Below the pieces are notes generated by a model. It saw only the letters and a list, made by a program, of their open reading frames with translations. It was not told the DNA's origin and did not search any database. From Limisphaerales bacterium (GTDB taxonomy: Bacteria > Verrucomicrobiota > Verrucomicrobiia > Limisphaerales > SXTU01), in assembly GCA_009773355.1 (NCBI GenBank), contig WRPG01000083.1, positions 1 to 32,887 on the forward strand: a stretch of 32,887 bases of DNA, read 5' to 3'. Every line of letters starts with the position of its first letter. The first letter of the stretch is position 1. Positions 1 through 12,145 of the stretch are shown here, in pieces. The position numbers were made by a program, and so were the translations under genes.

Positions 1-671
1 CCGAGCGCGCCCGAAGTCACCGCGCCGGCGGCGAGGTGCGACGAGGCGACCCCGCCGCTGGCGAGGGAAAACGTCGTGCCCGCAAGCGACAGGCCGGTGC
101 CGGCCGTGTAGGTCGTGCCGCTGGCCGGCGTGGCCCAGGCGACGGTCGAGCCGTTGTAAGTGAGCACCTGCCCGGTGGTCGCGCCGGTGGGGTCGAGTTT
201 CGCGGGCGTGACGGAGGAGGCGGCGAGCTTGGCGGCGGTGATGGCCCCGTCCGACACCGTGCCCGCCACGAGCGCGTAACCGACGGCGGCGATGCGCTGG
301 TCGGGCGTGAGCTGCTGGAAGCCGGAACCGTCGCTGAACCACACGCGCAGGCGCACGTCGGAGTTGGCGAAGACGCTCGCGCCGATGGCCGTGGTCATGC
401 CCGAGACGGTGGTGTCGCCAAGCAGCACGGCGTAGAGGCCCTTGCTCACGGCGAGCGAAACGCCGGTGGCGGGCTGGCCGCTGGCGGTGCCATCGTTGGC
501 CCAGTAGTTGACCGTGCCGGCGGTGTTGACGAGCGCGAACTTGAACAGCCCGGTGGCGTCGTAGTTCGTGCCGCCCACGGTGATGCGGCCCTGGTAGTTG
601 ATGATTTGTGGCACCTGCGCGGACGCGGTGAGCGCGGCGAACAGGCCGAGGGTGATGAGGAGCTTTTTCAT
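1..671 (-). CDS. Exported repetitive surface-type protein, C-terminus beyond window
   Basis: An open frame of 223 codons runs from the ATG at 669-671 to the left edge with no stop, so the 3' end is missing. The product opens with a signal peptide (MKKLLITLGLFAALTASAQ) followed by a QIINYQGRI segment. A beta-rich N-terminal domain of about 130 residues leads into low-complexity repeats of the form VTSxxLAAGAVTSxxL and TYTAGTGLSLAGTTF. This layout is familiar from large tail-fibre-like or chaperone-of-endosialidase (S74) surface proteins of Verrucomicrobiota and Bacteroidota, but the decisive C-terminal domain is outside the window, so the family is inference. It lies 44 bp downstream of the TPR gene on the same strand and is probably the next gene of the same operon. 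No function is assigned. Confidence 0.8.
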   Translation of the reverse strand, partial: MKKLLITLGLFAALTASAQVPQIINYQGRITVGGTNYDATGLFKFALVNTAGTVNYWANDGTASGQPATGVSLAVSKGLYAVLLGDTTVSGMTTAIGASVFANSDVRLRVWFSDGSGFQQLTPDQRIAAVGYALVAGTVSDGAITAAKLAASSVTPAKLDPTGATTGQVLTYNGSTVAWATPASGTTYTAGTGLSLAGTTFSLASGGVASSHLAAGAVTSGAL

Positions 672-715
672 GGTTTCAACTGTGGTGGCGGTGGAGAAAG
701 TGCCGGAATCGGGCT

Positions 716-1462
716 TCATAGTTTCGAGAGCTGGGCCTTGGCGGTGACGTTCTCGGGGTCGAGGGTGACGATGTCGTTGAAAAGCCGTTTGGCCTCGGCC
801 TTGTTGTCCTTGGCGAGCTTGATGAGGCCAAGCTCGGTCAGCAGCGAGATGTCGGTGGGATAGAGGACGAGCATGCCGTTGAGGATGGTCTCGGCGGCGT
901 CGAACTTCTTTTGCAGCCGCCCGACGTAGGCGAGCCGGAGGTTGGCGGTGTAATTCGCCGGGTCCACGCGGAGAACCTGCTTGGCGACGGCCTCGGCCTC
1001 CTCCCATTTCTCCTGCGCCATGAGCGGGAGCGTGTGGCCGAGCTTGGCCTCGATGGAGTCGGGCGCGGTCTTGATGGCGGTCTCGTAATGCTTGCGCGCC
1101 GTGGCGAAGCTGCCGGTGAGGTAGTTCAGCCAGCCGAGGCGGAGGTTCACCGTGTAAGCCTGCGGATACGCGCTGATGACGGGCGCGAGGGACTTGATGG
1201 CGTCGGCGTAGTTCTGGGCCTTCTCGTAGCGGTAGGACTTGTGGTAGGCGTCGCGAATCTCGGCGTCCGTGGGCGCGGCAGCGGTGGCGGGCTGCCAGAA
1301 AAATGGGGACAGAAATAGGAGGGCGAGCAGGAAGGCGGCGCGCCGTGCCGGCGGTTTGCTACCGCCGCCGTTGGCGCTGGGGAGTTCAGGCGCGATCGTG
1401 GATGGGAACGCGGCGGACGGCGATTGCAAATCGCCGGCACGGGTGGGCTGGGTCGTGTTCAT
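716..1462 (-). CDS. Secreted TPR-repeat protein
   Basis: This 248-residue protein has a hydrophobic signal segment at about residues 41-62 (RRAAFLLALLFLSPFFW, then an Ala-rich cleavage zone). About five TPR units fill residues 70-240, with signatures such as NLRLGWLNYLTGSFATA and LRVDPANYTANLRLAY. The TPR part aligns along its length with that of the neighbouring 1470-3077 product (compare IEAKLGHTLPLMA with LEPKLGLLLPLLA, and LVLYPTDISLLTELGL with LELYPSDTGLLYERGL), so the two are tandem paralogues. Residues 8-40 are encoded by a 100-bp element with terminal inverted repeats, so the first 40 residues are unlike a normal leader. No alternative ATG is present. It starts 7 bp after the stop of the barrel gene. 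It is probably a periplasmic scaffold or assembly partner of that protein (inference). Confidence 0.85.
   Translation of the reverse strand: MNTTQPTRAGDLQSPSAAFPSTIAPELPSANGGGSKPPARRAAFLLALLFLSPFFWQPATAAAPTDAEIRDAYHKSYRYEKAQNYADAIKSLAPVISAYPQAYTVNLRLGWLNYLTGSFATARKHYETAIKTAPDSIEAKLGHTLPLMAQEKWEEAEAVAKQVLRVDPANYTANLRLAYVGRLQKKFDAAETILNGMLVLYPTDISLLTELGLIKLAKDNKAEAKRLFNDIVTLDPENVTAKAQLSKL
1343..1442. repeat. 100-bp element with 11-bp terminal inverted repeats
   Basis: The element begins CCGTGCCGGCG and ends with the exact reverse complement CGCCGGCACGG. Inside each end is a small hairpin: GCGGTTTGCTACCGC near 1350-1365 and GGCGATTGCAAATCGCC at 1419-1435. The whole element is read in frame as residues 8-40 of the TPR protein. 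No clear target-site duplication flanks it. The shape is that of a REP/MITE-like element. Confidence 0.7.
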
Positions 1463-1469
1463 GTGCGCT

Positions 1470-3077
1470 TCAGAATGTGTAGCCGAGCATTGTTAAGAAA
1501 GTGTGAGCGGCAGAGGTGGTCGTGCCGCCGAGTTCGCGGAACTCCTCGCGGTTGAAGCGGAACGAGACGGCGGCGCGGTCGGAGAGGGCGCGCTTCACTT
1601 CGGCTCCGTAACCGGTGGTGTGCTTCTCGGGCAGGTTGAAGAGCGTCGCGCCATCCCCCCGCGCGGCGAAGGCCTGCCGGCCCGTCCAGCCGAAGGCGGC
1701 GAAGGTCCAGCGGTCCCAGAAGAGCGTGAGCCGCTCCTCGGCGGAGAAGAAATTGCGCCGGGCAAAGCCGACGTCCTCGCTCGCGTTCACCCAGTAGCCG
1801 TGCGTGTCGGCGCGCAGCGTCCAGTCCGCTCCGGTGGCGAGCACGCGGCCGAACTTGGGCGCGAGCTGGAGCACTTCGAGGCCGGTGCCGAAGTCCTCGT
1901 AGCGCGTGAAGAAGGCGTCGCAGCCCGCGCTCCACTTCGCCGAGCCGAGCCATTCCGCACCGGCGAACGCGCCCCACGCGCCGTCACTGGCGGCGTCGCC
2001 GTTCGCCAGCGTGTGCGCGCCGGCGCGGAGCCGCCAGCCCGCCACGGCGAAGCTGTTGTAGGCCGCCGTGACATCGAGCTGCTTCAGTCGCGGCAGGCCC
2101 ACGCGGTCCACCTCGATGTAGTCGAACGCCGTCTCAATGGCGTGCGACTTGCCCAAGCCGAGCCAGGTCGCCAGGCCCCAGAGCTTGGCCGAGTCCTTCA
2201 CCTGCGTGCCCTGATAATCAATCCAGCCACCGTAGAACGTCGCATCGAGCCGCGCGGGTGTGTCGCCGAGGCGAAAGCCGACGCCGCGCGCGAAGCCGGG
2301 GCTGGCGGGCGCGGTGAGTTCCGCGAGGTCGGCGAAGAGCTTCGGGTCGGCTAGTGCGGCGAAGATGGCGTCGTTGTCGGGGTCGAGCAGCTCGGCCTGG
2401 CCGAGGTAGTAGCGCGCGGCGGCGAACTGCTTTTGAGCGCGCTTTACCAGGCCACGTTCGTAGAGCAGGCCGGTGTCGCTGGGGTAAAGCTCCAGCGCGC
2501 GGACGAGGACGGAGTCGGCGGCGCGGAGTTTGTTTTGCAGGCGCAGCGCGGTGGCGAGGCGGAGGTGGGCGAGGTAATGGGTTTTATTGTCGCGCAGGAT
2601 CTCGCGGGCAAGAGCCTCGGCGGCGGTGAACGGTCCGGTGGCCAGCAGCGGGAGCAGGAGGCCGAGCTTGGGTTCGAGCGAGCGCGGCTTCTCCGCCTGC
2701 GCGGCGCGGTAGTGGGCGAGGGAGTTGGTGTGGTTGCCCTTTTGGTATTCCGCCCAGCCGGAGCGGACTTCGGAAAGGTAGTCGGCGGCGCGGGCGGGGA
2801 AGCTCCAAAGCCCAAATCCCAAGCTCCAAAGAATGACCAAGCTCCAAGCTCCAAGGCGAGGGCGGGGAGCAGGGACGGTTAGCTTGAACGCAAAGGCGCA
2901 GAGGACGCGGGGAGACGCGAAGGGGGAGAGGGGCTGTTCCTCTGCGCTTCTCTGCGTCCTCTGCGCCTTTGCGATGAGGTTTGCACTGCTGCCGCCCAAA
3001 GGGAGCGTGCCCTTTGGAGCTTGGGCCTTGGAGCTTCTTTGGAGCTTGGGCCTTGGGATTTGGAGCTTACTTCCCAT
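1470..3077 (-). CDS. TPR protein with C-terminal outer-membrane beta-barrel
   Basis: The reading frame encodes 535 residues. About residues 99-245 are TPR repeats paralogous to the next gene. Residues 260-535 are an alternating-hydrophobic, aromatic-rich beta-barrel region ending in the aromatic residue F (TMLGYTF), typical of an outer-membrane barrel recognised by the BAM machinery. A plausible Sec signal peptide sits unusually deep, at residues 73-98 (hydrophobic core LGAWSLVILWSLGFGLW, cleavage near ARA-AD). All of residues 3-93 are encoded by a nested palindromic repeat. The ATG at 3077 overlaps the end of the transporter gene by 11 bp. The only later in-frame starts are TTG codons (for example at 2840), which would leave a signal peptide without a positive N-region, so the true start is uncertain. 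It is likely the outer-membrane component of the cluster (inference). Confidence 0.8.
   Translation of the reverse strand: MGSKLQIPRPKLQRSSKAQAPKGTLPLGGSSANLIAKAQRTQRSAEEQPLSPFASPRVLCAFAFKLTVPAPRPRLGAWSLVILWSLGFGLWSFPARAADYLSEVRSGWAEYQKGNHTNSLAHYRAAQAEKPRSLEPKLGLLLPLLATGPFTAAEALAREILRDNKTHYLAHLRLATALRLQNKLRAADSVLVRALELYPSDTGLLYERGLVKRAQKQFAAARYYLGQAELLDPDNDAIFAALADPKLFADLAELTAPASPGFARGVGFRLGDTPARLDATFYGGWIDYQGTQVKDSAKLWGLATWLGLGKSHAIETAFDYIEVDRVGLPRLKQLDVTAAYNSFAVAGWRLRAGAHTLANGDAASDGAWGAFAGAEWLGSAKWSAGCDAFFTRYEDFGTGLEVLQLAPKFGRVLATGADWTLRADTHGYWVNASEDVGFARRNFFSAEERLTLFWDRWTFAAFGWTGRQAFAARGDGATLFNLPEKHTTGYGAEVKRALSDRAAVSFRFNREEFRELGGTTTSAAHTFLTMLGYTF
2800..3068. repeat. Nested dispersed palindrome (AAGCTCCAAAG and CGCAAAGGCGCAGAG arms)
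   Basis: There are two nested inverted repeats. The outer arms at about 2800-2855 and 3011-3068 are built of AAGCTCCAA/CCCAAG units and their complement TTGGAGCTTGGG. The inner arms pair CGCAAAGGCGCAGAGGACGC (from 2889) with its near-complement ending at 2973. A third small stem, CAAAGG...CCTTTG, lies near 2997-3016. The right end touches the stop codon of the transporter gene (3067-3069). The element is translated as the N-terminus of the barrel protein. Confidence 0.85.
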
Positions 3078-5133
3078 CGTCCCTCCTCGTGAGTTCCCAG
3101 TCGCCGTAGGTGACGGTGGCGAAGGCTTTGTTGCGGTCGAAGGTGACGGCCCCGGTTCGCTTCACGCCGAGCACGCGGGACTCAACGGTGGTTTCCACCC
3201 GGTGCTCGCCGACAAAACGTGACGTGACGCGCACGCGGGCGAACCGATGCCACACGGAGCTTGCGACGCCGACCAACGCGCCGCGCAGCCCGCTCGCCAC
3301 AAGGCCGACCGGCACGAAGTCGCGCCAGGTGAGGCCGTCGCGGCAGGCCAGCGGCATCCGGGGCAACGCGAGGAAAATGGCGCGCAGCCGCGGGTCGGAA
3401 CCATCGCAGCGGTAAGCGTAGTAAGTGCCCTCGAAGCGGCCGAAGTAGAGGACGCCCGCGCCGGAGTCGAAGTAGAACGTGCCATCGAGGGCCATGCGGA
3501 CCTTGAGCACGAGGTCGTCGGTGGCGCGGCCCTTGTGCTTCACGGCGTAGCGGTATTCCTCGTCGAGGACGAAGTTCGTGACCGAGTCGAGGCGCTTGTT
3601 CGGGTAGAGGGCCTCGACCTTGCCGCCGACTTTAGGGAGGTCGTTCGCGTGCGCGAGGCCGTCTTCGGAATAACTCACGAAGCTGAATGGAACTGTCGCC
3701 GCGCCGGGCGTCTCGGTGAGCTGGGCCTGCACATGGATGTGCGGCTGGGGCGAGTAACCGGAGTTGCCGCAGAGGCCAAGGACCGCGCCGCGCTCGACCC
3801 AGTCGCCGATTTTCACGCGCAGGGACTTCGCGGCGAAATGCGACAGCTCGACGTGCCAGCCGCGCGGCTCGGCGATGATGAGGAGGTTGCCCCAGTTGTT
3901 GACTTTGTCGGGGTCGTTGATGGGGCTGTCGGGGAAGTCGTCCACGGCGGCGACGATGCGGCCGCGCACGGGCGAGAGGACGGGTTTGTTGAAGCAGTAG
4001 TAGTCCTCGAGCTTCGCGCCGGTGCCGGCGTGTGTCTTGCCGTCGGCGTCGGTGAGCACGAAGTCGTAGGCGTAGCGCCACGCACCCTTGTGCGTCCACG
4101 CGCCGTCGAAGGCCTGCCAGACGGTCCACGCGCCGGCGAAGGGCGGGAGCAGCGTGCGCTCGGAGCCGGGGTAGCGGAGGCGATTGGCGAGATGGGTATC
4201 GAGTGTCTCCTCGGGCGTGAGGCCGATGCGCGCGGCGATGAGCGGGCTGCCCACGAGGCCGAGCGTGTAGAGCGCGAGCAGGGTGACTGTGGCAAACGGC
4301 AGCGTGAACGCCGGGATGCCGTAGTAACTCCAAAAGCCCGCAATGGCGTCCATCACGATGGGCGAGAGCGCGACAGCAATCGCGGCAAGCAAATAACTTC
4401 GCACGGACGGGATGAGGAACACGCCGCCCACGGCCATCGCGATGAGGAGGAAGTTGAAGTTGAGCGGGTCGGTGTAGGCCTTGACCGGCGAGCCAAGCAT
4501 CCAGTGGCGGACGGTTGCGCCCACGACGTAGCCGAGCGCGGCGAGCAGGAAGAGGATGCGCGAGCGGGAGAGAATCAGCGCCGCCAGCCCGGCCCCGACG
4601 ATGACGCTCGGGGTGAAGAGCAGCGAGCCAAAGGCCTTGAAGAAGCCGGCGAGCGCGAGCGGCAGGCCGAGGTCGTCGGCGAGCCATGCAGGCTGGTGCG
4701 CGGGCGCGGCGATGAGGTTGCCGTAGCGCAGCGACGCCATGTAGACGAGCGAGCTGACGACGACGAACGGGAGGCTGAGGAGCGGGAGCTTGAGGAAGGT
4801 GGTGAAGAAGTTGGCCATCGCCACCGTGATGAGCAGCGTGAGCACGCCGGCGGCGACGCAGAAGAAGAGGCCGAGGGCGTTGAGCTGGAAGAGGTGGCCG
4901 ACGGAGAGGCCGACGAGGAGCGGGTTGCAGGTGTAGAAGCCGGACTCGAGGAAGACCTTGCCCATGCCGATGACGCGCGCGAACGCGTAGGCCGCGAGCA
5001 CGGCGACAAAACCCGCGATGCCGAGGCGGAGGTTCAGCATCGTGATGCCGAAAAGCAGGAAGCCCACGATGCCGCCCTGGAGGAAGAACACCTCGGCGTA
5101 GCTGCGGAACACGGCGTGGAGAAGGGGTTTCAT
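3067..5133 (-). CDS. Urea-transporter-like membrane domain fused to M23/LytM domain
   Basis: The product has 688 residues. Residues 15-305 contain about ten hydrophobic segments with urea-transporter (UT) family character, for example FYTCNPLLVGLSVGHLF at 66-82 and LNFNFLLIAMAVGGVFL at 224-240. Residues 330-475 are an M23-type domain with the HxH motif PHIHVQ (H465, H467), the third histidine SHF (H432), and GNSGYSPQPH. The canonical HxGxD zinc motif reads RYAYD (R353-D357), so its first ligand His is not in the usual place and peptidase activity is doubtful. The remaining C-terminal 200 residues are beta-rich. By family, UT domains form channels for urea and similar small amides, and LytM domains act on or bind peptidoglycan. 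It is central to the cluster and probably spans the inner membrane with the M23 part in the periplasm (inference). Confidence 0.85.
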   Translation of the reverse strand: MKPLLHAVFRSYAEVFFLQGGIVGFLLFGITMLNLRLGIAGFVAVLAAYAFARVIGMGKVFLESGFYTCNPLLVGLSVGHLFQLNALGLFFCVAAGVLTLLITVAMANFFTTFLKLPLLSLPFVVVSSLVYMASLRYGNLIAAPAHQPAWLADDLGLPLALAGFFKAFGSLLFTPSVIVGAGLAALILSRSRILFLLAALGYVVGATVRHWMLGSPVKAYTDPLNFNFLLIAMAVGGVFLIPSVRSYLLAAIAVALSPIVMDAIAGFWSYYGIPAFTLPFATVTLLALYTLGLVGSPLIAARIGLTPEETLDTHLANRLRYPGSERTLLPPFAGAWTVWQAFDGAWTHKGAWRYAYDFVLTDADGKTHAGTGAKLEDYYCFNKPVLSPVRGRIVAAVDDFPDSPINDPDKVNNWGNLLIIAEPRGWHVELSHFAAKSLRVKIGDWVERGAVLGLCGNSGYSPQPHIHVQAQLTETPGAATVPFSFVSYSEDGLAHANDLPKVGGKVEALYPNKRLDSVTNFVLDEEYRYAVKHKGRATDDLVLKVRMALDGTFYFDSGAGVLYFGRFEGTYYAYRCDGSDPRLRAIFLALPRMPLACRDGLTWRDFVPVGLVASGLRGALVGVASSVWHRFARVRVTSRFVGEHRVETTVESRVLGVKRTGAVTFDRNKAFATVTYGDWELTRRDDGK

Positions 5134-5136
5134 TCA

Positions 5137-5329
5137 GCCGCGAAAGGGCGCAGAGAACGCAGAGAAGGCGGGGAAAAACGTTCAACGTCCAACGTCCAAC
5201 TTCCAAGGTTGAACGAACAGGTAGTCGAACGCGCAAGGACGAAGGCAGCGCCCTCTGGACGTTGAACGTTGAACGTTGAGCGTTGGACGTTTCGTTTCAT
5301 CCTTTGTGCTCTTTGCGCCCTTTCGCGGC
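5137..5329. repeat. Nested dispersed palindrome filling an operon junction
   Basis: The outer arms are GCCGCGAAAGGGCGCAGAG at 5137 and CTCTTTGCGCCCTTTCGCGGC ending at 5329. The first 15 bases pair perfectly. The inner arms are TTCAACGTCCAACGTCCAAC near 5180-5200 and GGACGTTGAACGTTGAACG near 5257-5275. The element occupies nearly all of the 200 bp between the decarboxylase stop (5334) and the transporter start (5133). It belongs to the same GCAAAG/GCGCAGAG family as 2889-2973 and 28766-28860. Confidence 0.8.
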
Positions 5330-5333
5330 CATC

Positions 5334-6695
5334 TCACTTCCCGTTCTTCAACTCCAAGTGCTTCGGCAGGCGCTCGCGGCGTTGGATGTCGGTGATGTCT
5401 TCGGCTTCGCGAATGATTTCCACTTCGCCGCTCTCGGTGACGAGCACGACGTTGGGGCGATACTCGATGAACTGGAGCCACTGCGTGTTGTTGTAGGCGC
5501 CGACGGGCGAGAAAATCAGCCGCGTGCCGCGCTTGAGCGGCGGGAGCTGGATGCCCTCGTCAATCGCGTCAATGTTCATGCACAGCGGGCCGTAGATGAC
5601 GCTGGTCTCGTTGATGCCGCCGACTTCGCGGTCGAGCTCGACGTTGAACTTATACCAGAAGGCGGTGAAGAGGAGGTTCACGCCGCCGTCGGCGACGTAG
5701 GCGCGCGTGCCGTCGGCGAGGCGCTTGGCGGCGACGATGCTCGTGATGAGGTAGCCCGCTTCGTCAATCACCGCGCGGCCCGACTCGATGATGAGCTTGG
5801 GGAAATCGCCGGGCTTCAGCGCCTCGGAGAACGCGTGCGTGATGGCCTCGGCGAATTCATCAATGCCGGGAATCGCCACCTCGGGCGGGAGGTAGACGCC
5901 CTTCAACCGGCTCTTGCTCGGGAAACCGCCGCCGATGTCGTAGGACTCCATCTCGAAGCCAAACGCCTCGCGCAGCTCGTAGCCAAACTTCACCATCTTG
6001 GTGATTTCGCGCGCGTAAGCCTGTGGGTCCATGATGAACGTGCCGATGTGGCAGTGCAGGCCGTTGAGCTTGAGCCGGCCACCGCGGGCGATGCGCTTGG
6101 CGGCGTCGAGCGCCTGGCCGGATTCGAGGTTGAAGCCGAAGCGCGACCACTGCGGGTAGATGCCGGCATCGAGGTTGAGGCGCATCCCGACGTGGACGGT
6201 GCGGTTGAGTTTCTTGGCGACGGTCTCGAGGTCCACGATTTCGTCGAGGTTGTCCACGTTCACCACCGCCCCCTCGACGACGGCTTTCTCGAGCGCGGCC
6301 ATCGGCTTGTGCGGGCCGTTGAAGATGATTTTCTCGCCCGGGATGCCGAGGAGGCGGGCCTTGTCGTATTCCATCGCGGAGACGACCTCGGCAATCGAGC
6401 CTTCCTGGTGCATGAGGGCGCAGATGGCCTGGAGGTAATTGGTCTTGTAGCTCCAGCCGAACTCGACGTTGGGGTAGCGCGTGGAGAAGGCGTTGAACAT
6501 CTGGCGATACGTGCGCCGCGCGGTGCGCTCGCTGTAGACGAAGAGCGGCGAGCCGAACTGCCCGCACAGCTCGTCCACGCTCACGCCGTCAATGGCGGTG
6601 CGGACCTTGCGCGCGTAGGCGGGACTCCAGCCGAACTTGTTCATCAGGCCGGAGCGGAGCTTGTTGATGACGGGCTTTTCGTAGGGGCGCTTCAT
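5334..6695 (-). CDS. Fold-III PLP-dependent decarboxylase, LysA/diaminopimelate-decarboxylase-like
   Basis: This 453-residue protein carries the full alanine-racemase-fold decarboxylase motif set. These are the PLP lysine in WSYKTN (K84), the HxG loop HCHIG (214-218), the phosphate-binding DIGGGFP (253-259), ESGR (304-307, in place of EPGR), the catalytic-Cys motif YGPLCMNID (C372) and GAY (399-401). Family members remove the alpha-carboxylate of diaminopimelate, lysine, ornithine, arginine or carboxynorspermidine. The substrate here cannot be read from sequence. The active-site Cys motif departs from the usual GPxCxSxD of LysA (N instead of S), and the neighbours are not lysine-biosynthesis genes, so a specialised substrate is likely. 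It is downstream of the ATP-grasp gene and probably co-transcribed with it across a 129-bp gap. Confidence 0.9.
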   Translation of the reverse strand: MKRPYEKPVINKLRSGLMNKFGWSPAYARKVRTAIDGVSVDELCGQFGSPLFVYSERTARRTYRQMFNAFSTRYPNVEFGWSYKTNYLQAICALMHQEGSIAEVVSAMEYDKARLLGIPGEKIIFNGPHKPMAALEKAVVEGAVVNVDNLDEIVDLETVAKKLNRTVHVGMRLNLDAGIYPQWSRFGFNLESGQALDAAKRIARGGRLKLNGLHCHIGTFIMDPQAYAREITKMVKFGYELREAFGFEMESYDIGGGFPSKSRLKGVYLPPEVAIPGIDEFAEAITHAFSEALKPGDFPKLIIESGRAVIDEAGYLITSIVAAKRLADGTRAYVADGGVNLLFTAFWYKFNVELDREVGGINETSVIYGPLCMNIDAIDEGIQLPPLKRGTRLIFSPVGAYNNTQWLQFIEYRPNVVLVTESGEVEIIREAEDITDIQRRERLPKHLELKNGK

Positions 6696-6794
6696 GATGA
6701 TAAGGGAATGGGGTCTAGCGGATAGGGGATAGGGCGGTGGCCGGATGATTCAGGCTGGGATGGACGGACACTGACGACTGGAGCGCGGACACCC

Positions 6795-6822
6795 ATCTGT
6801 GTTTCATCTGTGAAAATCTGTG
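6795..6822. repeat. Three ATCTGTG direct repeats
   Basis: ATCTGTG occurs at 6795-6801, 6806-6812 and 6816-6822, with spacing of 11 and 10 bp. The run lies immediately after the ATP-grasp stop codon. It resembles the short dispersed ATCTGTG/ATCCGTG repeats seen between genes in many environmental bacterial genomes. The rest of the 6696-6824 gap shows GGGATAGGG-type low complexity and no gene. Confidence 0.6.
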
Positions 6823-6824
6823 GC

Positions 6825-7865
6825 TCAACCAACTTCCCCCCGTGTCACGGCCTGCTGGAACTTCACCATGTCCGTCACCAATTCGTAGCTGTAGCGGACG
6901 AAGAGCTTGCCGGCCTCGTAGTCGGGCGCGAGCGGCTGGTCCACGCCGAGCGCGTGGCGGACGAGGCGCGCGGGGAGGTTCACGCCGACGCCGGTGGCGA
7001 AGTAGACCCACGCCGGGAAACGCGGGTTGATCTCGATGAGATACACGTCGTCGCCCTTCACGATGCATTCGAGCTCGAACGGCCCGCGCCACTTCAGCTC
7101 GCGGATAAAGCGGTTCGCCGCGTCGAGCATCGGCCGGTGCTTGATGGTCACGCCGGTCCAGATTTTGCCCAGCGCGGTGACGCTGATTTTCTTGATGCCA
7201 ACGATGCCGAGCGAACCGCCCGCGCCGTCACCCACGCCAATGACGTTGAGTTCCTCGCCGCTGACGATGCTCTGCACGATGACGGGATAGCCCCACTCCG
7301 CCACGAGTGCATGGAAGTGCGAGACCGCCTGCGTCGTCGTGTAAGCCGCGTAGGCCTTGTAGAAACTCCCCTTCACCATCACCGGCAGGCCGAGTTCGTC
7401 CACGGCGGCGATGAGCTGGTCCAGCGACGTGCAAACCTTCGTCTTCGGCAGCTTGATGTCCATGCGTTCGGCGACCTCGGCGAGCTTGTCCTTGCCGCGC
7501 AACTTGAACTGCTCCATCGAGGGCAGGAACGTCGCGATGCCCATGTCCTTCAGCTCGCCGACGCGCTTGAGGTAGAGCGGCAGCTCGGCGTCGAGATTTG
7601 GGATGAGCACGTCCAGCCCCTGCTGGTCGCGGATGAACGCGAGCCGGTCGAAGTAGGCCGCGCCGTCGCCCGACGGATACGGCATGATGAACGACCGGTC
7701 CACGACCCAGTCCATGTAGATGCCCGGCTCCATCGCGTCGTAGGCGAGGCCGATGATGCGGGCGTTGAGGTCTTCGGCTTCCTTGAGCGAGCGGGCGACG
7801 CCGACGCCGGGGCCGGGGTTGTCCACGGCGTTGATGCCGGAGACGCCGATGGCGAGGTCTTTCAT
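6825..7865 (-). CDS. ATP-grasp ligase, carbamoyl-phosphate-synthase-like
   Basis: The product is 346 residues long. The N-terminal 110 residues are a Rossmann-like pre-ATP-grasp domain (MKDLAIGVSGINAVDN...). The ATP-grasp fold follows, with a nucleotide-binding lysine in LPVMVKGSFYKAY and the metal-binding motif LIEINPRFPAW near residues 277-287. By family, such enzymes join a carboxylate (via acyl phosphate) to an amine or other nucleophile. It is shorter than CarB and lacks its duplicated halves, so it is not carbamoyl-phosphate synthase. It begins 1 bp after the PqqD-like stop, indicating tight coupling. With that protein and the decarboxylase it would form the cytosolic synthesis part of the cluster. 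The substrate is unknown. Confidence 0.9.
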   Translation of the reverse strand: MKDLAIGVSGINAVDNPGPGVGVARSLKEAEDLNARIIGLAYDAMEPGIYMDWVVDRSFIMPYPSGDGAAYFDRLAFIRDQQGLDVLIPNLDAELPLYLKRVGELKDMGIATFLPSMEQFKLRGKDKLAEVAERMDIKLPKTKVCTSLDQLIAAVDELGLPVMVKGSFYKAYAAYTTTQAVSHFHALVAEWGYPVIVQSIVSGEELNVIGVGDGAGGSLGIVGIKKISVTALGKIWTGVTIKHRPMLDAANRFIRELKWRGPFELECIVKGDDVYLIEINPRFPAWVYFATGVGVNLPARLVRHALGVDQPLAPDYEAGKLFVRYSYELVTDMVKFQQAVTRGEVG

Positions 7866-7866
7866 G

Positions 7867-8103
7867 TCAGGCGAGGCCGAAATTTTTGAGCTGGCCGCGG
7901 AAGTCCGTGCAATCGCGGCGCGCCTCTTCGAGCGACACCTCGAAGTCGGCGACGAGCTGCTGCGCGGTCTCCTCGTCGCTGCGGCCCTCCTTCAGGGCGC
8001 GCAGCACGGCCATGCCGGTTTCGCTGACCTGGAAGCTGTCGCCCGTCTGCGGGTCGAAGACGAAGCCCTCATCGGAGAGGGCGAGCTGGGAGAGGCGGTT
8101 CAT
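7867..8103 (-). CDS. PqqD-like peptide-binding protein
   Basis: This 78-residue protein matches the PqqD layout. A short beta part (LALSDEGFVFDPQTGDSFQV) is followed by SETGMAVLRALKEGRSDEETAQ and a helical end, EARRDCTDFRGQLKNFGLA. PqqD-family proteins bind a peptide substrate and present it to a modifying enzyme (RiPP recognition element fold). No pqqA-E genes, radical SAM gene or obvious precursor peptide lie nearby, so PQQ synthesis is not supported. As first gene of the minus-strand run, 1 bp ahead of the ATP-grasp gene, it suggests that the ligase works on a peptide or protein-bound substrate (inference). Confidence 0.85.
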   Translation of the reverse strand: MNRLSQLALSDEGFVFDPQTGDSFQVSETGMAVLRALKEGRSDEETAQQLVADFEVSLEEARRDCTDFRGQLKNFGLA

Positions 8104-8126
8104 GTGTTGGTGCGACGGCTGCGCAT
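8100..8126 (-). other. Possible 8-codon leader ORF overlapping the PqqD-like start
   Basis: An ATG at 8124-8126 opens a frame encoding MRSRRTNT that stops at a TGA sharing four bases (ATGA) with the PqqD-like start. It sits just downstream of the 8130-8188 palindrome. The overlap is the kind used for translational coupling, but so short an ORF can arise by chance. Confidence 0.2.
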
Positions 8127-8362
8127 GGTGACGACGGAGCCAACTGGCGGTTACAGGGCCACAACTGGTCCTGCCGATGACCGTCGTCCGATGCTGTTCG
8201 GCCCTGATTCAATGGCGGGATTGTTAAGGGATTATTAAGCCGGCGCAAATTCTGGATCGGGAAATATCCGTAGCCTGCCACGCCCGGACGGACGTGCCAG
8301 CTACAGCCAACACCTGAGCCGCCCCGTGTAACGCCGTTTCCCGCCGACGCTATGACCTTGCG
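8104..8362. promoter_or_regulatory. Divergent intergenic region, probable promoters
   Basis: These 259 bp separate the minus-strand seven-gene run from the plus-strand GH26 gene, so both need promoters here. The only AT-rich stretch in this GC-rich gap is TTGTTAAGGGATTATTAAG at about 8221-8239, a natural place for a -10 element. No convincing sigma-70 pair can be assigned on either strand. No protein-coding gene is visible. Confidence 0.35.
8130..8188. promoter_or_regulatory. Nested palindrome in leader of the PqqD-like operon
   Basis: The outer stem GACGACGG (8130-8137) pairs exactly with CCGTCGTC (8181-8188). Inside it, CGG-CAGG (8148-8157, interrupted by TTA) pairs with CCTGCCG (8170-8176). 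It lies 27 bp upstream of the PqqD-like start and would fold in the operon mRNA or serve as an operator. Confidence 0.35.
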
Positions 8363-11300
8363 ATGAAAACGCGCACCGCTGTCACGCTCGGGTTGGCTCT
8401 GCTCGCTCACAGCCTCGCCAACGGGGCGGACTTGCTCACCAACGGCTCCTTCGAGTCCGCCGCCACGGGCTGGTCGCTCGCGGGCGGCGCGGCGCGTTAC
8501 CAGCAGGTCGGCACGGCTTACGCGGGCACGAACGCGCTGCGCGTCTTCAATCGCGCCAACTTCACCAACGCCCCGCAGCAGGATGTGACCATCGCGCTCG
8601 CCGCCGCGACCAACGGCGGGACGTGGACCACGCGCTTCGCCGTGCAGGTGGCCGCGCCCACGACCGTGCGGGCGTGGTTGCGGGTGGTCGTGGACAACGC
8701 GGGGGTCATCGCCACGAACCGCCTGCTGCTCGCCGAGCACGTGGTGCGTGTGACGAACCAATGGGAGCGCGTCTCCGGCACGCAGACGTTGAACTGGCCC
8801 GGCACGCTGTCGAACTCGCTCTTCTACGTCGAGTGCGGCATGAAGCAGGAGCCAGCCGGCAAGGCGTATCCCGACGCCATCTTCGACGACTTCGCCATCC
8901 GCCCCGACGCGGACGGCGACGGGCTGTGGGATGAGGAGGAAGTGCCTGTGCTTCAGGGCGGACTCGGCACCAGCCCGACGCTCGCGGACACCGACGGCGA
9001 CGGGCTGCCGGATGGCTGGGAATTCTATTCCGGCACTAACCCGCTCGTGGCCGATGCCACGGCGGACCCGGACCACGACGGGTTCACCAACTGGCAGGAG
9101 TTCCGCACCGCGACCAGCGCGACCAACGCGCTCTCGTTCCCCGGCCAGCCCACGCACACGAGCCTCACAACCAACGCCACCGCCGTGCTGAAGTATCTCG
9201 CGAAACTCCCGCTCGCGGCGACCAACCGCTTCATCCCCGGCCAGCATCTCACCGACACGGCGAACGAATGGACCAATCTCGTCGTGCGGCTCCAGCAGCG
9301 CACAGGGCGCTGGCCGGGCTTGGTGAGCTTCACCGCCGAGAGTTCTGTCACGAATACACCGGTGCAGACCGCCGGCATCATCCCCTACGCGCTGGAGACG
9401 TGGACCAACGGCGGGCTGGTGCTCATCAAGTGGGCGCCGTGGAACCCGTGGAGCGGCAAGTTCGGCGCGGCGTCAGTGCCCACGCTGATTGACATTCCCG
9501 AGTTGTTGAACCCCGCGCCCGCGCTGGCCACGAACCAGGTCGCACGCAGCAATTACCTCGCGTGGCGGCAGAGCATTGGCGACGACCTCACGACCTTGCG
9601 CGACGCGGGCATGCCCGTGCTGTGGCGGCCGTTCGCGGAGATGAACGGGACTTGGTTCTGGTGGGGCAACTTGCCGCGCGACCATTACCACTCACTGTGG
9701 CGCGACCTGCACGGCTACTTCACGCAGACGCGTGGGCTGACGAACTTGCTGTGGGTCTTCGAGCCGGACCAGACGGTGCATCTCGTGGCCGGCACGACGA
9801 GTTCCGGCACGCCGCTGGACTACTACTATCCCGGCGACGACGTGGTGGACGTGGTGGGGCACAACTTCTACGACGACGACTGGGCGCTGCCGTTCCGCAG
9901 CGACGAGATTTGGAGCCGCTCGGGGAAAATCTTCGCCGTGCCGCAGGCCGGGCCAAGCCACCAGGTGCGCGACGGCTCGTTCGACAACCTGACGTATCTC
10001 AACGGCATCACGAACACGATTGCCCGGTGCGCGTTCATCGCCGTGTGGAACAACATCACCGCCGGAACCAACACCCAATTGATAGCCATCGCGGACAACG
10101 TGAACGCCAGCAACCTGCTCGCGCATCCGCTGGCCATCACGCGCGGCGAGGTGAACTGGCAGGCGGAACTGCCAGCGGTCACGCCGCCGTTGCCAACGGC
10201 GGAACTGCTCGCCAACGGCGGCTTCGAGTCCGCGCTCACGGGCTGGGTGAACTACGGTCCGCTGGCAACCGTGCGCGCGGTCGTCTCGCCCGGCCACACC
10301 GGCGGCGGCGCGCTGTCCGTCTCGAACCGCAACGCGTTGACCAACGGCCTCGCGCAGGACGTGCTCGCCGCGCTGCTCGCCAACGGCCCCGGCCAGCGCT
10401 ACGTGGCGCGCGCGTGGCTCAAGAGCGACTTGCCCACGAGCGTCCGTGTGCGGCTCGTGCTCACGGATGCGACGGGCGCGAAGAGCCGGTTTCTCCTGGC
10501 CGAGCGGCAGCTCCGCGAGGCGCAGACGAACCAGTGGAATTTCATCGAAGGCGTCCAGACCGTGACGTGGAACGCCACACCGACCAACGCGCTGCTCTTC
10601 TTCGAGGTCGGCCAGTTGGCGGAGAATGTCTTCCCGTCCTACCTGCTCGACGACGTTTCCCTCCAGCCGGACAACGACGGCGACCGCTTGAGCAACGCGG
10701 AGGAACTCGCGCTCGGCGCCAACCCGCTGCTCGCCGACACCGACGGCGACGGCATCCCCGACGGATGGGAAACGCGCCACGGCCTCGACCCGCTGACTGC
10801 CGCCGATGCCGCGTGGGACCGCGACGGCGACGGCTTCACCAACGTGCAGGAGTTCTGGGCCGCGACCGACCCGACGCTGCGCACGAGCTTTCCCGGCAAG
10901 GCCTCCGTGACCAACGCAACCGACGCGGCGCGGCAGGTCCTCCTGCGGCTCGCGGTCGCGCCCAGCCAGCCGACGAACCGTTGCTTCTCCGGGCAGACCC
11001 TCACCGGCGGCAATCTCGGCGTGCCCGCCGAATACACGAATTTCTTTTTGAACCTCGCGCAGCAGTCCGGCCACACGCCCGCCGTGATGCAACTGACTTA
11101 CGAGGTGCCGCCCACGAACGTCCAGGCCGCCGCGATGAATCCCTTCGCCATCAGCCACTGGCAGGCCGGCGGGCTGGTGCTCGTCCATTATGCGCCGCCC
11201 AATCCCGTGAGCAACGGCCATCCCGGCGACCTGACCAACGTGGTGAACCTGACGACGCTCTTCACGCCCGGCACCGCCGCGCACACGAACTGGATGCGCT

Positions 11301-12145
11301 CGCTCGACCTGTGTGCCGACGGCTTGCAGCAATTGCGCGAAGCCGGCGTGGTGGTCATGTTCACCATCCTGCACGAAAACAACGGCAGTTGGCTTTGGTG
11401 GCACAAGCACCCGCGCGCCGACTACGTCGCGCTCTATCGCGGCGTCCACGACTACTTCACGCGCGTCCGGGGCCTGAACAACCTGCTCTGGATTTTCCAC
11501 CCGAGCGAGGCCACGCACGACCTGCTCCCGATGGATTACTACTATCCCGGCGACGAGGTCGTGGACCTCATTGGCCCGAGTGTCTACAACTCGACCTTTC
11601 AATTTCCCTTCCCGATGGACGAACTGTTCCGCGCCTACCCGAAGGCGTTTGGGCTGACCGAGGCGAACGCGAACCGCAACACCAACGCGTGGGACCTGAC
11701 CATCCTCACGACCAACCTCGCCACCACGCTGCCGCGCGCGGCCTTCTTCTGCGCGTGGTCGTCGTTCCAGAACGGCGCGGCCCCGCTCACGCGCTACTCG
11801 CTCGTGCAACACGAACGTGACGGTGCTGCTCAACGCCCCGCACATCGGCAACCGCGCGGCTGTGGATTGGGCCACCTACTTGCCGATGCAACTCAACCTC
11901 CGCCGCCAAGGCCCCGCGTTCGCCGTGGACTGGGTCGGCGGCGCGCTGGATTACTCCACCAACCTGCTGCACTGGACCACGGTGACGAACGCCACCCAGT
12001 CGTGGGCACCGCCGCCCGACGGCATGAGTGTCTTCCGCGTGCGACGCGAACGATGAACGTGTGCCCGCTCGCTCCGCGCGCGCCCCGGTCGTGTGACCGG
12101 GGCGGTTCTTTCAAACCGGCCTCAGTGCGAAGGACGTTGCGTTAG
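8363..12145 (+). CDS. Secreted tandem GH26 (mannanase-family) protein with CBM-like and TSP3 modules, frameshifted near its end
   Basis: The uninterrupted frame gives 1260 residues. A signal peptide ([21 protein letters not shown]) is followed by two copies of the same module. Each has a CBM4/9-like sandwich opening [11 protein letters not shown] or [11 protein letters not shown] (about 22-180 and 615-765), calcium-binding TSP3 repeats ([23 protein letters not shown]), and a GH26 domain (about 265-600 and 850-1145). Copy 2 has both expected glutamates: acid/base E1005 in LHENNGSW and nucleophile E1100 in GLTEANA. Copy 1 keeps the acid/base E426 in FAEMNGTW but has Q528 (AVPQAG) where the nucleophile should be. 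GH26 enzymes mostly cleave beta-mannans. After about residue 1148 the frame turns unrelated. The genuine C-terminus continues in another frame to 12056 (see separate entry). Confidence 0.9.
11808..12056 (+). pseudogene. Displaced C-terminal part of the GH26 gene (frameshift)
   Basis: From 11808 a different frame reads [20 protein letters not shown] and ends with [20 protein letters not shown]...[10 protein letters not shown], a typical Verrucomicrobiota C-terminal beta-domain. Its beginning aligns with the matching place in copy 1 of the same protein: [21 protein letters not shown] against [20 protein letters not shown]. One extra base, or two missing bases, near 11807 would account for the break. 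The stop at 12056 is followed after 25 bp by a hairpin terminator, which supports 12056 as the original end. The result would be about 1230 residues. Confidence 0.75.
12082..12111 (+). terminator. Hairpin terminator after the GH26 gene
   Basis: A perfect 9-bp stem GCCCCGGTC/GACCGGGGC (12082-12090 and 12095-12103) closes a GTGT loop and is followed by GGTTCTTT. It serves the plus-strand gene, because the opposite side has no T-run. It lies inside the spurious extension of the first frame. Confidence 0.7.

Follow-up and report, generated by a model that had tools for sequence, protein, structure and literature searches.

A conserved gene unit of diderm bacteria with a leader-like tail on its decarboxylase and a UT-M23 fusion protein

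Gene content of the locus

The stretch of DNA analysed here, referred to as the window, is one entire contig of 32,887 nucleotides (WRPG01000083.1) from the draft genome (6.16 Mb, 95% complete) of a Limisphaerales bacterium of the phylum Verrucomicrobiota. Six minus-strand genes at positions 716-8103 encode a PqqD-like protein, an ATP-grasp ligase, a pyridoxal phosphate (PLP) decarboxylase, a fusion of a urea transporter (UT) channel domain with an M23 metallopeptidase domain, a tetratricopeptide repeat (TPR) protein ending in an outer-membrane barrel, and a secreted TPR protein (Table 1). All six were recovered where the original prediction, made from the letters alone, had placed them, and their families are backed by Pfam. 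The PqqD-like and ATP-grasp genes are separated by 1 bp, and the TPR-barrel gene overlaps the UT-M23 gene by 11 bp. The predicted end of the unit was set too early, since the unit of relatives continues into a fibre-like gene with Peptidase_S74, which starts at position 671 (minus strand) in the window and is cut by the contig start. A promoter scan of positions 600-8400 gave no sigma-70-like site, and terminators were near chance.

Table 1 Features of the gene unit and their positions in the window.
Feature	Position	Strand	Support
PqqD-like protein of discrete RiPP recognition element (RRE) type, 78 aa, core gene 1	7867..8103	-	Pfam PqqD 1.7e-10
ATP-grasp ligase, 346 aa, core gene 2	6825..7865	-	Pfam and NCBIfam ATP-grasp matches
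Alanine racemase (AR)-fold PLP decarboxylase, 453 aa, core gene 3	5334..6695	-	Pfam Orn_Arg_deC_N 3e-32
Decarboxylase N-terminal leader-like tail, residues 5-20 (YEKPVINKLRSGLMNK), predicted PqqD-like docking site	6636..6683	-	
UT-M23 fusion, 688 aa, core gene 4	3067..5133	-	Pfam UT 1.7e-52, M23 7e-9
UT channel domain, fusion residues 1-305	4219..5133	-	Foldseek dvUT 3k3g
M23 metallopeptidase domain, about residues 335-490, predicted cytosolic	3664..4131	-	Foldseek EnpA 6smk
C-terminal beta-rich domain of fusion, about residues 505-688, of no named family	3070..3621	-	No Pfam match; confident AlphaFold2 (AF2) strands
TPR and 14-strand outer-membrane barrel, 535 aa, common accessory	1470..3077	-	AF2, Foldseek
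Secreted TPR protein, paralogue of the TPR part of the barrel protein	716..1462	-	Pfam TPR_16 5.8e-20
Fibre-like secreted protein, N-terminal 223 residues only; Verrucomicrobia-specific addition	1..671	-	N-terminus compared with relatives

Conservation and distribution of the unit

The UT-M23 and ATP-grasp proteins were searched for in two samples, 146 genomes of the order and 388 of the phylum. Full-length UT-M23 proteins occur in 11 of the 146 order genomes, and the ATP-grasp search returned exactly the same 11; in the phylum sample both proteins occur in the same 7 of 388 genomes. The genomes carrying the unit in these samples are related, and the co-occurrence counts are not independent events. 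In the order relatives, decarboxylase and barrel genes flank the UT-M23 gene as far as the contigs extend. No UT-M23 protein was found in viral contigs.

An ATP-grasp scan of 84,980 species genomes located 152 places, the best 80 of which (L042-L121) provide the locus counts and phylum names given here. The gene order PqqD-like, ATP-grasp, PLP decarboxylase, UT-M23, outer-membrane barrel and TPR recurs in other phyla, and the genes flanking the unit vary from phylum to phylum. The PqqD-like gene adjoins the ATP-grasp gene in 76 of the 77 loci with room for it; a decarboxylase lies near in 72/77 and UT-M23 in 64/74, counts from a script that misses a few genes through artefacts of open reading frame (ORF) starts (e.g. 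L070). Record titles include Aquificota, Thermodesulfobacteriota, Gemmatimonadota, Ignavibacteriota, Kapaibacteria, Calditrichota, WOR-3, Campylobacterota, Wallbacteria and Cyanobacteria. Nineteen phyla are titled, and about a dozen are claimed here because some bin labels are plainly wrong (e.g. Klebsiella). Three loci titled Proteobacteria or Klebsiella (L042, L044 and L046) hold a near-identical Verrucomicrobial unit, and these bins look mislabelled. In a separate Aquificota sample the ATP-grasp protein was present in 39 of 121 genomes.

The same order round ATP-grasp homologues of many phyla is far beyond chance, and the pairwise divergences of the six proteins are correlated (r 0.74-0.90). 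Four divergent variants within the phylum, at 24-48% identity, lack the barrel and retain the order PqqD, ATP-grasp, decarboxylase, UT-M23, and the core is therefore taken as these four genes. From these sequence comparisons it is nearly certain that the six genes belong to one conserved inherited unit of diderm bacteria. The neighbourhood check that had been set beforehand found a shared neighbourhood elsewhere, and not its absence. The claim of an undescribed unit that takes in the outer-membrane barrel and secreted TPR also held: the order recurs, and no description was found in the open-access literature, with an earlier mention elsewhere not excluded.

Several loci depart from the standard arrangement. 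Three Hydrogenothermaceae loci (L093, L096, L102) have PqqD, ATP-grasp and decarboxylase without an adjoining UT-M23. In a Thermovibrio bin the full unit is preceded by an additional PqqD-like gene and part of an ATP-grasp frame (L095:167-917). In an Aquifex bin the UT-M23 gene between those for the decarboxylase and the barrel is called on the other strand (L117:2615-4714), through a local inversion or an assembly fault. The UT-M23 frame of Brasilonema is broken and is followed by an OprB-type SLH porin (L112:12455-16094). In one divergent variant, found in the complete genome G460, the PqqD-like gene is directly preceded by genes for an FHA-domain protein and a TPR-bearing Ser/Thr kinase (L122:13530-15687).

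The decarboxylase and its substrate class

The closest solved structure to the decarboxylase is N-citrylornithine decarboxylase (7KH2, 9e-69, against 3e-48 for diaminopimelate (DAP) decarboxylase, 1TWI). Residues K84, H216, E304, R307, C372, M373, T344 and W347 are conserved in at least 68 of 69 sequences, and also in variants at 45-48% identity. The Met beside the catalytic Cys (C372-M373) is common to this enzyme and FigC. In FigC, T327, T330, Y331 and M355 replace the usual Asp (ornithine) or Arg (DAP) determinants and H357 is the likely citrate contact (PMC7857480). A HMMER alignment pairs T327, T330, Y331, M355 and H357 with T344, W347, Y348, M373 and I375, which are identical in all four divergent variants. 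These conserved pocket positions point to one conserved substrate other than DAP or a free basic amino acid.

FigC is grouped with SbnH, AcsE, MccE and BtrK, alongside DAPDC and D-ODC, and these five non-DAPDC enzymes remove the carboxyl group of an amino acid that is already part of a conjugate (PMC7857480). By profile match and the shared Met, not by tree, the decarboxylase appears to belong with such conjugate decarboxylases of FigC/BtrK type. Because FigC-group enzymes act on already-joined amino acids, ligation probably precedes decarboxylation; this order, proposed originally, remains the best reading of the enzymes. The score against the N-citrylornithine decarboxylase (FslC/FigC) profile NF041039 is 199 bits, under its cut-off of 500.

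The enzyme had been called LysA-like. Its assignment as a PLP decarboxylase stands, but it is not simply LysA-like. It scores 205 bits on the LysA profile TIGR01048 (curated cut-off 297.9), while another gene of the same genome scores 464 bits and is the true LysA, which rules out a LysA role for the decarboxylase of the unit. The specificity-helix Arg and the acidic residue beside the catalytic Cys that mark LysA are not present, and T344/W347/Y348 and M373 are found there.

A leader-like tail as the putative partner of the PqqD-like protein

The first 20 residues of the decarboxylase follow the pattern YEKPVIxKLxxGxMNKFG across phyla. The motif YxxPx[I/V/L], with its Tyr and Pro, is found in the N-terminal tail of 67 of 68 homologues; in the lone exception (L060) the chosen start codon falls at the MNKFG step, apparently cutting the tail off. 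The tails of the divergent variants read FxxPxL, LxxPxL and FxxPxI. Discrete RREs bind leaders with [Y/W]xxPx[L/V/I/F/A] (PMC13381572), and variation from YxxP to LxxP is known for RRE leader motifs (PMC12710340). The PqqD-like protein is a free-standing member of this RRE/PqqD family, with a PF05402 score of 41.5 bits against a cut-off of 23.4 and a length of 78 aa, inside the limit of 110 aa; its best NCBIfam match is the lasso-peptide PqqD family, under that family's cut-off.

In a loose form the motif is also seen close to the N-terminus in 13/55 UT-M23, 5/32 barrel and 2/43 TPR proteins, and in no ATP-grasp or PqqD-like protein. No credible second protein with the same tail was found, the tail occurring once per genome tested, bar one weak match. 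A search of up to 500 bp upstream gave no conserved short ORF with the motif, only 3 chance-like matches in 74 loci (other places were not searched), and a separate precursor peptide upstream of PqqD was rejected on this result. The motif and its distribution favour the leader-like tail of the decarboxylase itself, and not a separate peptide, as the ligand of the PqqD-like protein. Of the peptide-binding role first assigned to it, the PqqD family stands and the separate peptide does not. The tail also carries a near-invariant Asn19, and by eye the Asn is kept in distant variants.

The partner encoded 1 bp downstream matches Pfam ATP-grasp families at 2.7e-7 and weaker, and its nearest solved chains are 2PN1 and carbamoyl-phosphate synthase. 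K165, E266, E278, N280 and R282 are conserved even at 34-44% identity.

Structure and topology of the UT-M23 fusion

The AF2 model of the fusion (pLDDT 90.6) contains a UT fold and an M23 fold, which match dvUT (3k3g, target TM-score 0.83) and EnpA (6smk, target TM-score 0.76) in Foldseek searches. The M23 zinc ligands and catalytic His (H348, D357, H432, H465, H467) are invariant in 42/42 sequences and also in the four divergent variants, at 27% identity. The His-Asp spacing exceeds the usual HxxxD, and the M23 core holds an invariant Cys. In the UT domain, the dvUT residues F27, L84, F190, F243 and L247, which we take to form the hydrophobic pore, are retained. At the positions of Q24 and E187, presumably urea-binding, Glu is found in 28/42 and Ala/Ser/Thr in 40/42, respectively. 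The domain thus has the urea-transporter fold and Pfam match but not the polar urea-binding residues, and the originally proposed conduit keeps its fold and hydrophobic pore while the polar residues that bind urea are mostly replaced.

Since UTs possess 10 transmembrane helices (PMC10541013), the N- and C-termini lie on one side of the membrane. With the helix order taken from the model, the face bearing both termini carries a mean of 8.9 Lys and Arg residues compared with 2.2 on the other face, a bias present in 42/42 sequences. Given this bias and the common side of the termini, the M23 domain is predicted to be cytosolic, a placement that we consider likely from sequence and model. The original proposal of transfer to a periplasmic LytM domain is probably wrong.

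In a Planctomycetota bin, UT-M23 and two TPR domains share one frame of 1,085 aa (L071:3165-6422), in which a hydrophobic, signal-like stretch lies ahead of the TPRs; the fusion is either natural or the result of a lost stop.

Barrel, TPR protein and neighbouring genes

In the AF2 model of the TPR-barrel protein, TPR helices (residues 78-255) are followed by 14 strands (275-534). The top Foldseek match of the barrel is BcsC (9b8a), and OmpG- and CymA-type channels are also matched. A signal peptide (by eye), an antiparallel barrel and an aromatic C-terminus mark it as an outer-membrane barrel. The homologues of other phyla comprise about 290 aa, with a signal peptide and a mostly aromatic C terminus; judged by these sequences, the TPR-barrel fusion is the Verrucomicrobial form and most other phyla have the barrel only. 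The secreted TPR protein and the TPR region of the barrel protein are about 41% identical, and by eye most homologues of the former carry signal peptides. By the same comparison barrel and TPR are common additions outside the minimal core, and the original view of them as full members is not borne out, the divergent variants being without the barrel.

Downstream of TPR, Verrucomicrobia loci encode a full-length secreted fibre-like protein that ends in Peptidase_S74 and, by eye, contains GGG-rich repeats resembling the YadA head; a secreted Ig-like/TSP3 protein follows. In a Calditrichota bin the barrel and TPR genes are separated by one for a secreted FG-GAP protein whose C-terminus is a sorting domain (L084:15473-17110). 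On the other side of the unit, the divergently oriented neighbour at 8363-12145 of the window encodes two GH26 glycoside hydrolase domains, two CBM_4_9 domains and TSP3 stretches.

Proposed pathway and alternatives

The computed features, namely one unit, conserved catalytic residues, a tail motif, UT and M23 folds, a charge asymmetry and a barrel, can be joined in a pathway whose chance of being right we place slightly below even. The PqqD-like protein would bind the YxxPx[I/L] tail and hold the decarboxylase beside the ATP-grasp ligase, which would couple an amino acid to a carrier or a second small molecule. Held there, the decarboxylase would then strip the carboxyl group from the already-joined amino acid, leaving an amine. 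The cytosol-facing M23 domain could trim or release the product beside the UT pore, the UT domain may let the released piece across the inner membrane, and the periplasmic TPR protein together with the 14-strand barrel may provide its exit.

Several points weigh against this pathway. The small-molecule substrate of the ATP-grasp ligase is not readable from its sequence, and the putative urea-binding residues are replaced in most UT domains. The M23 enzymes that have been characterised hydrolyse peptidoglycan, and the domain is placed in the cytosol on the strength of charge bias and fold topology. Barrel and TPR are missing from several lineages, so export by these proteins cannot be a general feature. 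Some Persephonella-type genomes carry UT-M23 at a separate site (that of L093 on another contig). The outward direction of transport is itself a guess, which we hold tentatively.

Peptidoglycan or envelope modification is an unlikely alternative, in which the enzymes make a diamine-bearing precursor and a periplasmic M23 domain cuts peptidoglycan to anchor the outer-membrane barrel or a fibre. The barrel and TPR are envelope proteins, the characterised M23 relatives matched here are peptidoglycan hydrolases, and diamines are known on the peptidoglycan of some diderms. However, the positive charges of all 42 sequences put M23 in the cytosol, its core holds the invariant Cys, and UT-M23 is kept in variants without barrel or TPR. 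Equally improbable is uptake or sensing, with barrel, TPR and UT importing a small polar nitrogen compound for conversion by the cytosolic enzymes. ATP-grasp ligases form bonds and are better suited to synthesis, and loss of most urea-binding residues also speaks against import, although UT proteins conduct passively in both directions, the barrel is similar to channels of OmpG/CymA type and one variant family has the Ser/Thr kinase and FHA protein just upstream.

The decarboxylase tail could itself be the substrate, standing in for a free precursor and modified by the ligase, perhaps at the near-invariant Asn19, in an arrangement like that of ribosomally synthesised and post-translationally modified peptides (RiPPs). 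The tail does resemble a leader followed by a conserved NKFG stretch, its Asn is retained in distant variants (by eye), and no precursor gene was found within 500 bp upstream. Yet RiPP cores usually vary and this tail does not, no RiPP-typical protease or exporter is present, and plain docking is simpler, so we hold this reading to be quite improbable. Chance or linked transfer of unrelated genes without a common pathway has almost no standing and is refuted as far as comparative genomics can: a genus relative (G026) is without the unit, which is therefore mobile or easily lost, but the order is held across very different flanks and at 27% UT-M23 identity, and ATP-grasp and UT-M23 co-occur exactly.

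The preferred docking and release pathway would, at somewhat less than even odds, define a new biosynthetic class of about a dozen diderm phyla, in which an RRE/PqqD protein docks an enzyme via a leader-like tail and the product is cleaved by a cytosolic M23 domain on a repurposed urea-channel fold. Leader-recognition domains would then steer enzymes instead of precursors, a metallopeptidase family thought extracytosolic would work inside the cytosol, and the urea-channel fold would have a new role. The order is kept across so many phyla that the unit is probably useful to its hosts, and the cultured carriers Thermodesulfobacterium hydrogeniphilum and Thermodesulfatator autotrophicus make the system testable.

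Comparison with known systems

BtrJ is an ATP-grasp enzyme. The butirosin system BtrJ/BtrK/BtrI resembles the unit in combining an ATP-grasp ligase with an AR-fold decarboxylase whose substrate is an amino acid in conjugated form (BtrK: PMC7857480). The unit differs in having a PqqD-like partner and tail instead of an acyl-carrier protein, and in its added membrane and envelope proteins; BtrK is a weaker match to the decarboxylase (1e-31) than FigC. FigC/FslC of the rhizoferrin pathway is the closest solved decarboxylase and has the Thr, Tyr and Met of the substrate pocket in common, whereas His357, the proposed citrate contact, is Ile here and Thr330 is Trp. FigC works with a major facilitator superfamily exporter, and no NRPS-independent siderophore synthetase is seen in the unit.

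Discrete RREs (PqqD/lasso B1) likewise pair a PqqD-family protein with a YxxPx[I/L] peptide, but here the motif stands on an enzyme N-terminus and not on a short precursor, and the unit has no lasso cyclase, radical SAM or PQQ genes. BcsC/PgaA-type exporters share the succession of a TPR domain and an outer-membrane barrel, BcsC being the top fold match; the unit has a 14-strand barrel and no polysaccharide synthase, and most other phyla have the barrel only. Unlike dvUT, the UT domain is fused to M23 and has mostly Glu and Ala/Ser at the equivalents of Gln24 and Glu187, but the two share the same fold (target TM-score 0.83) and the conserved hydrophobic pore residues.

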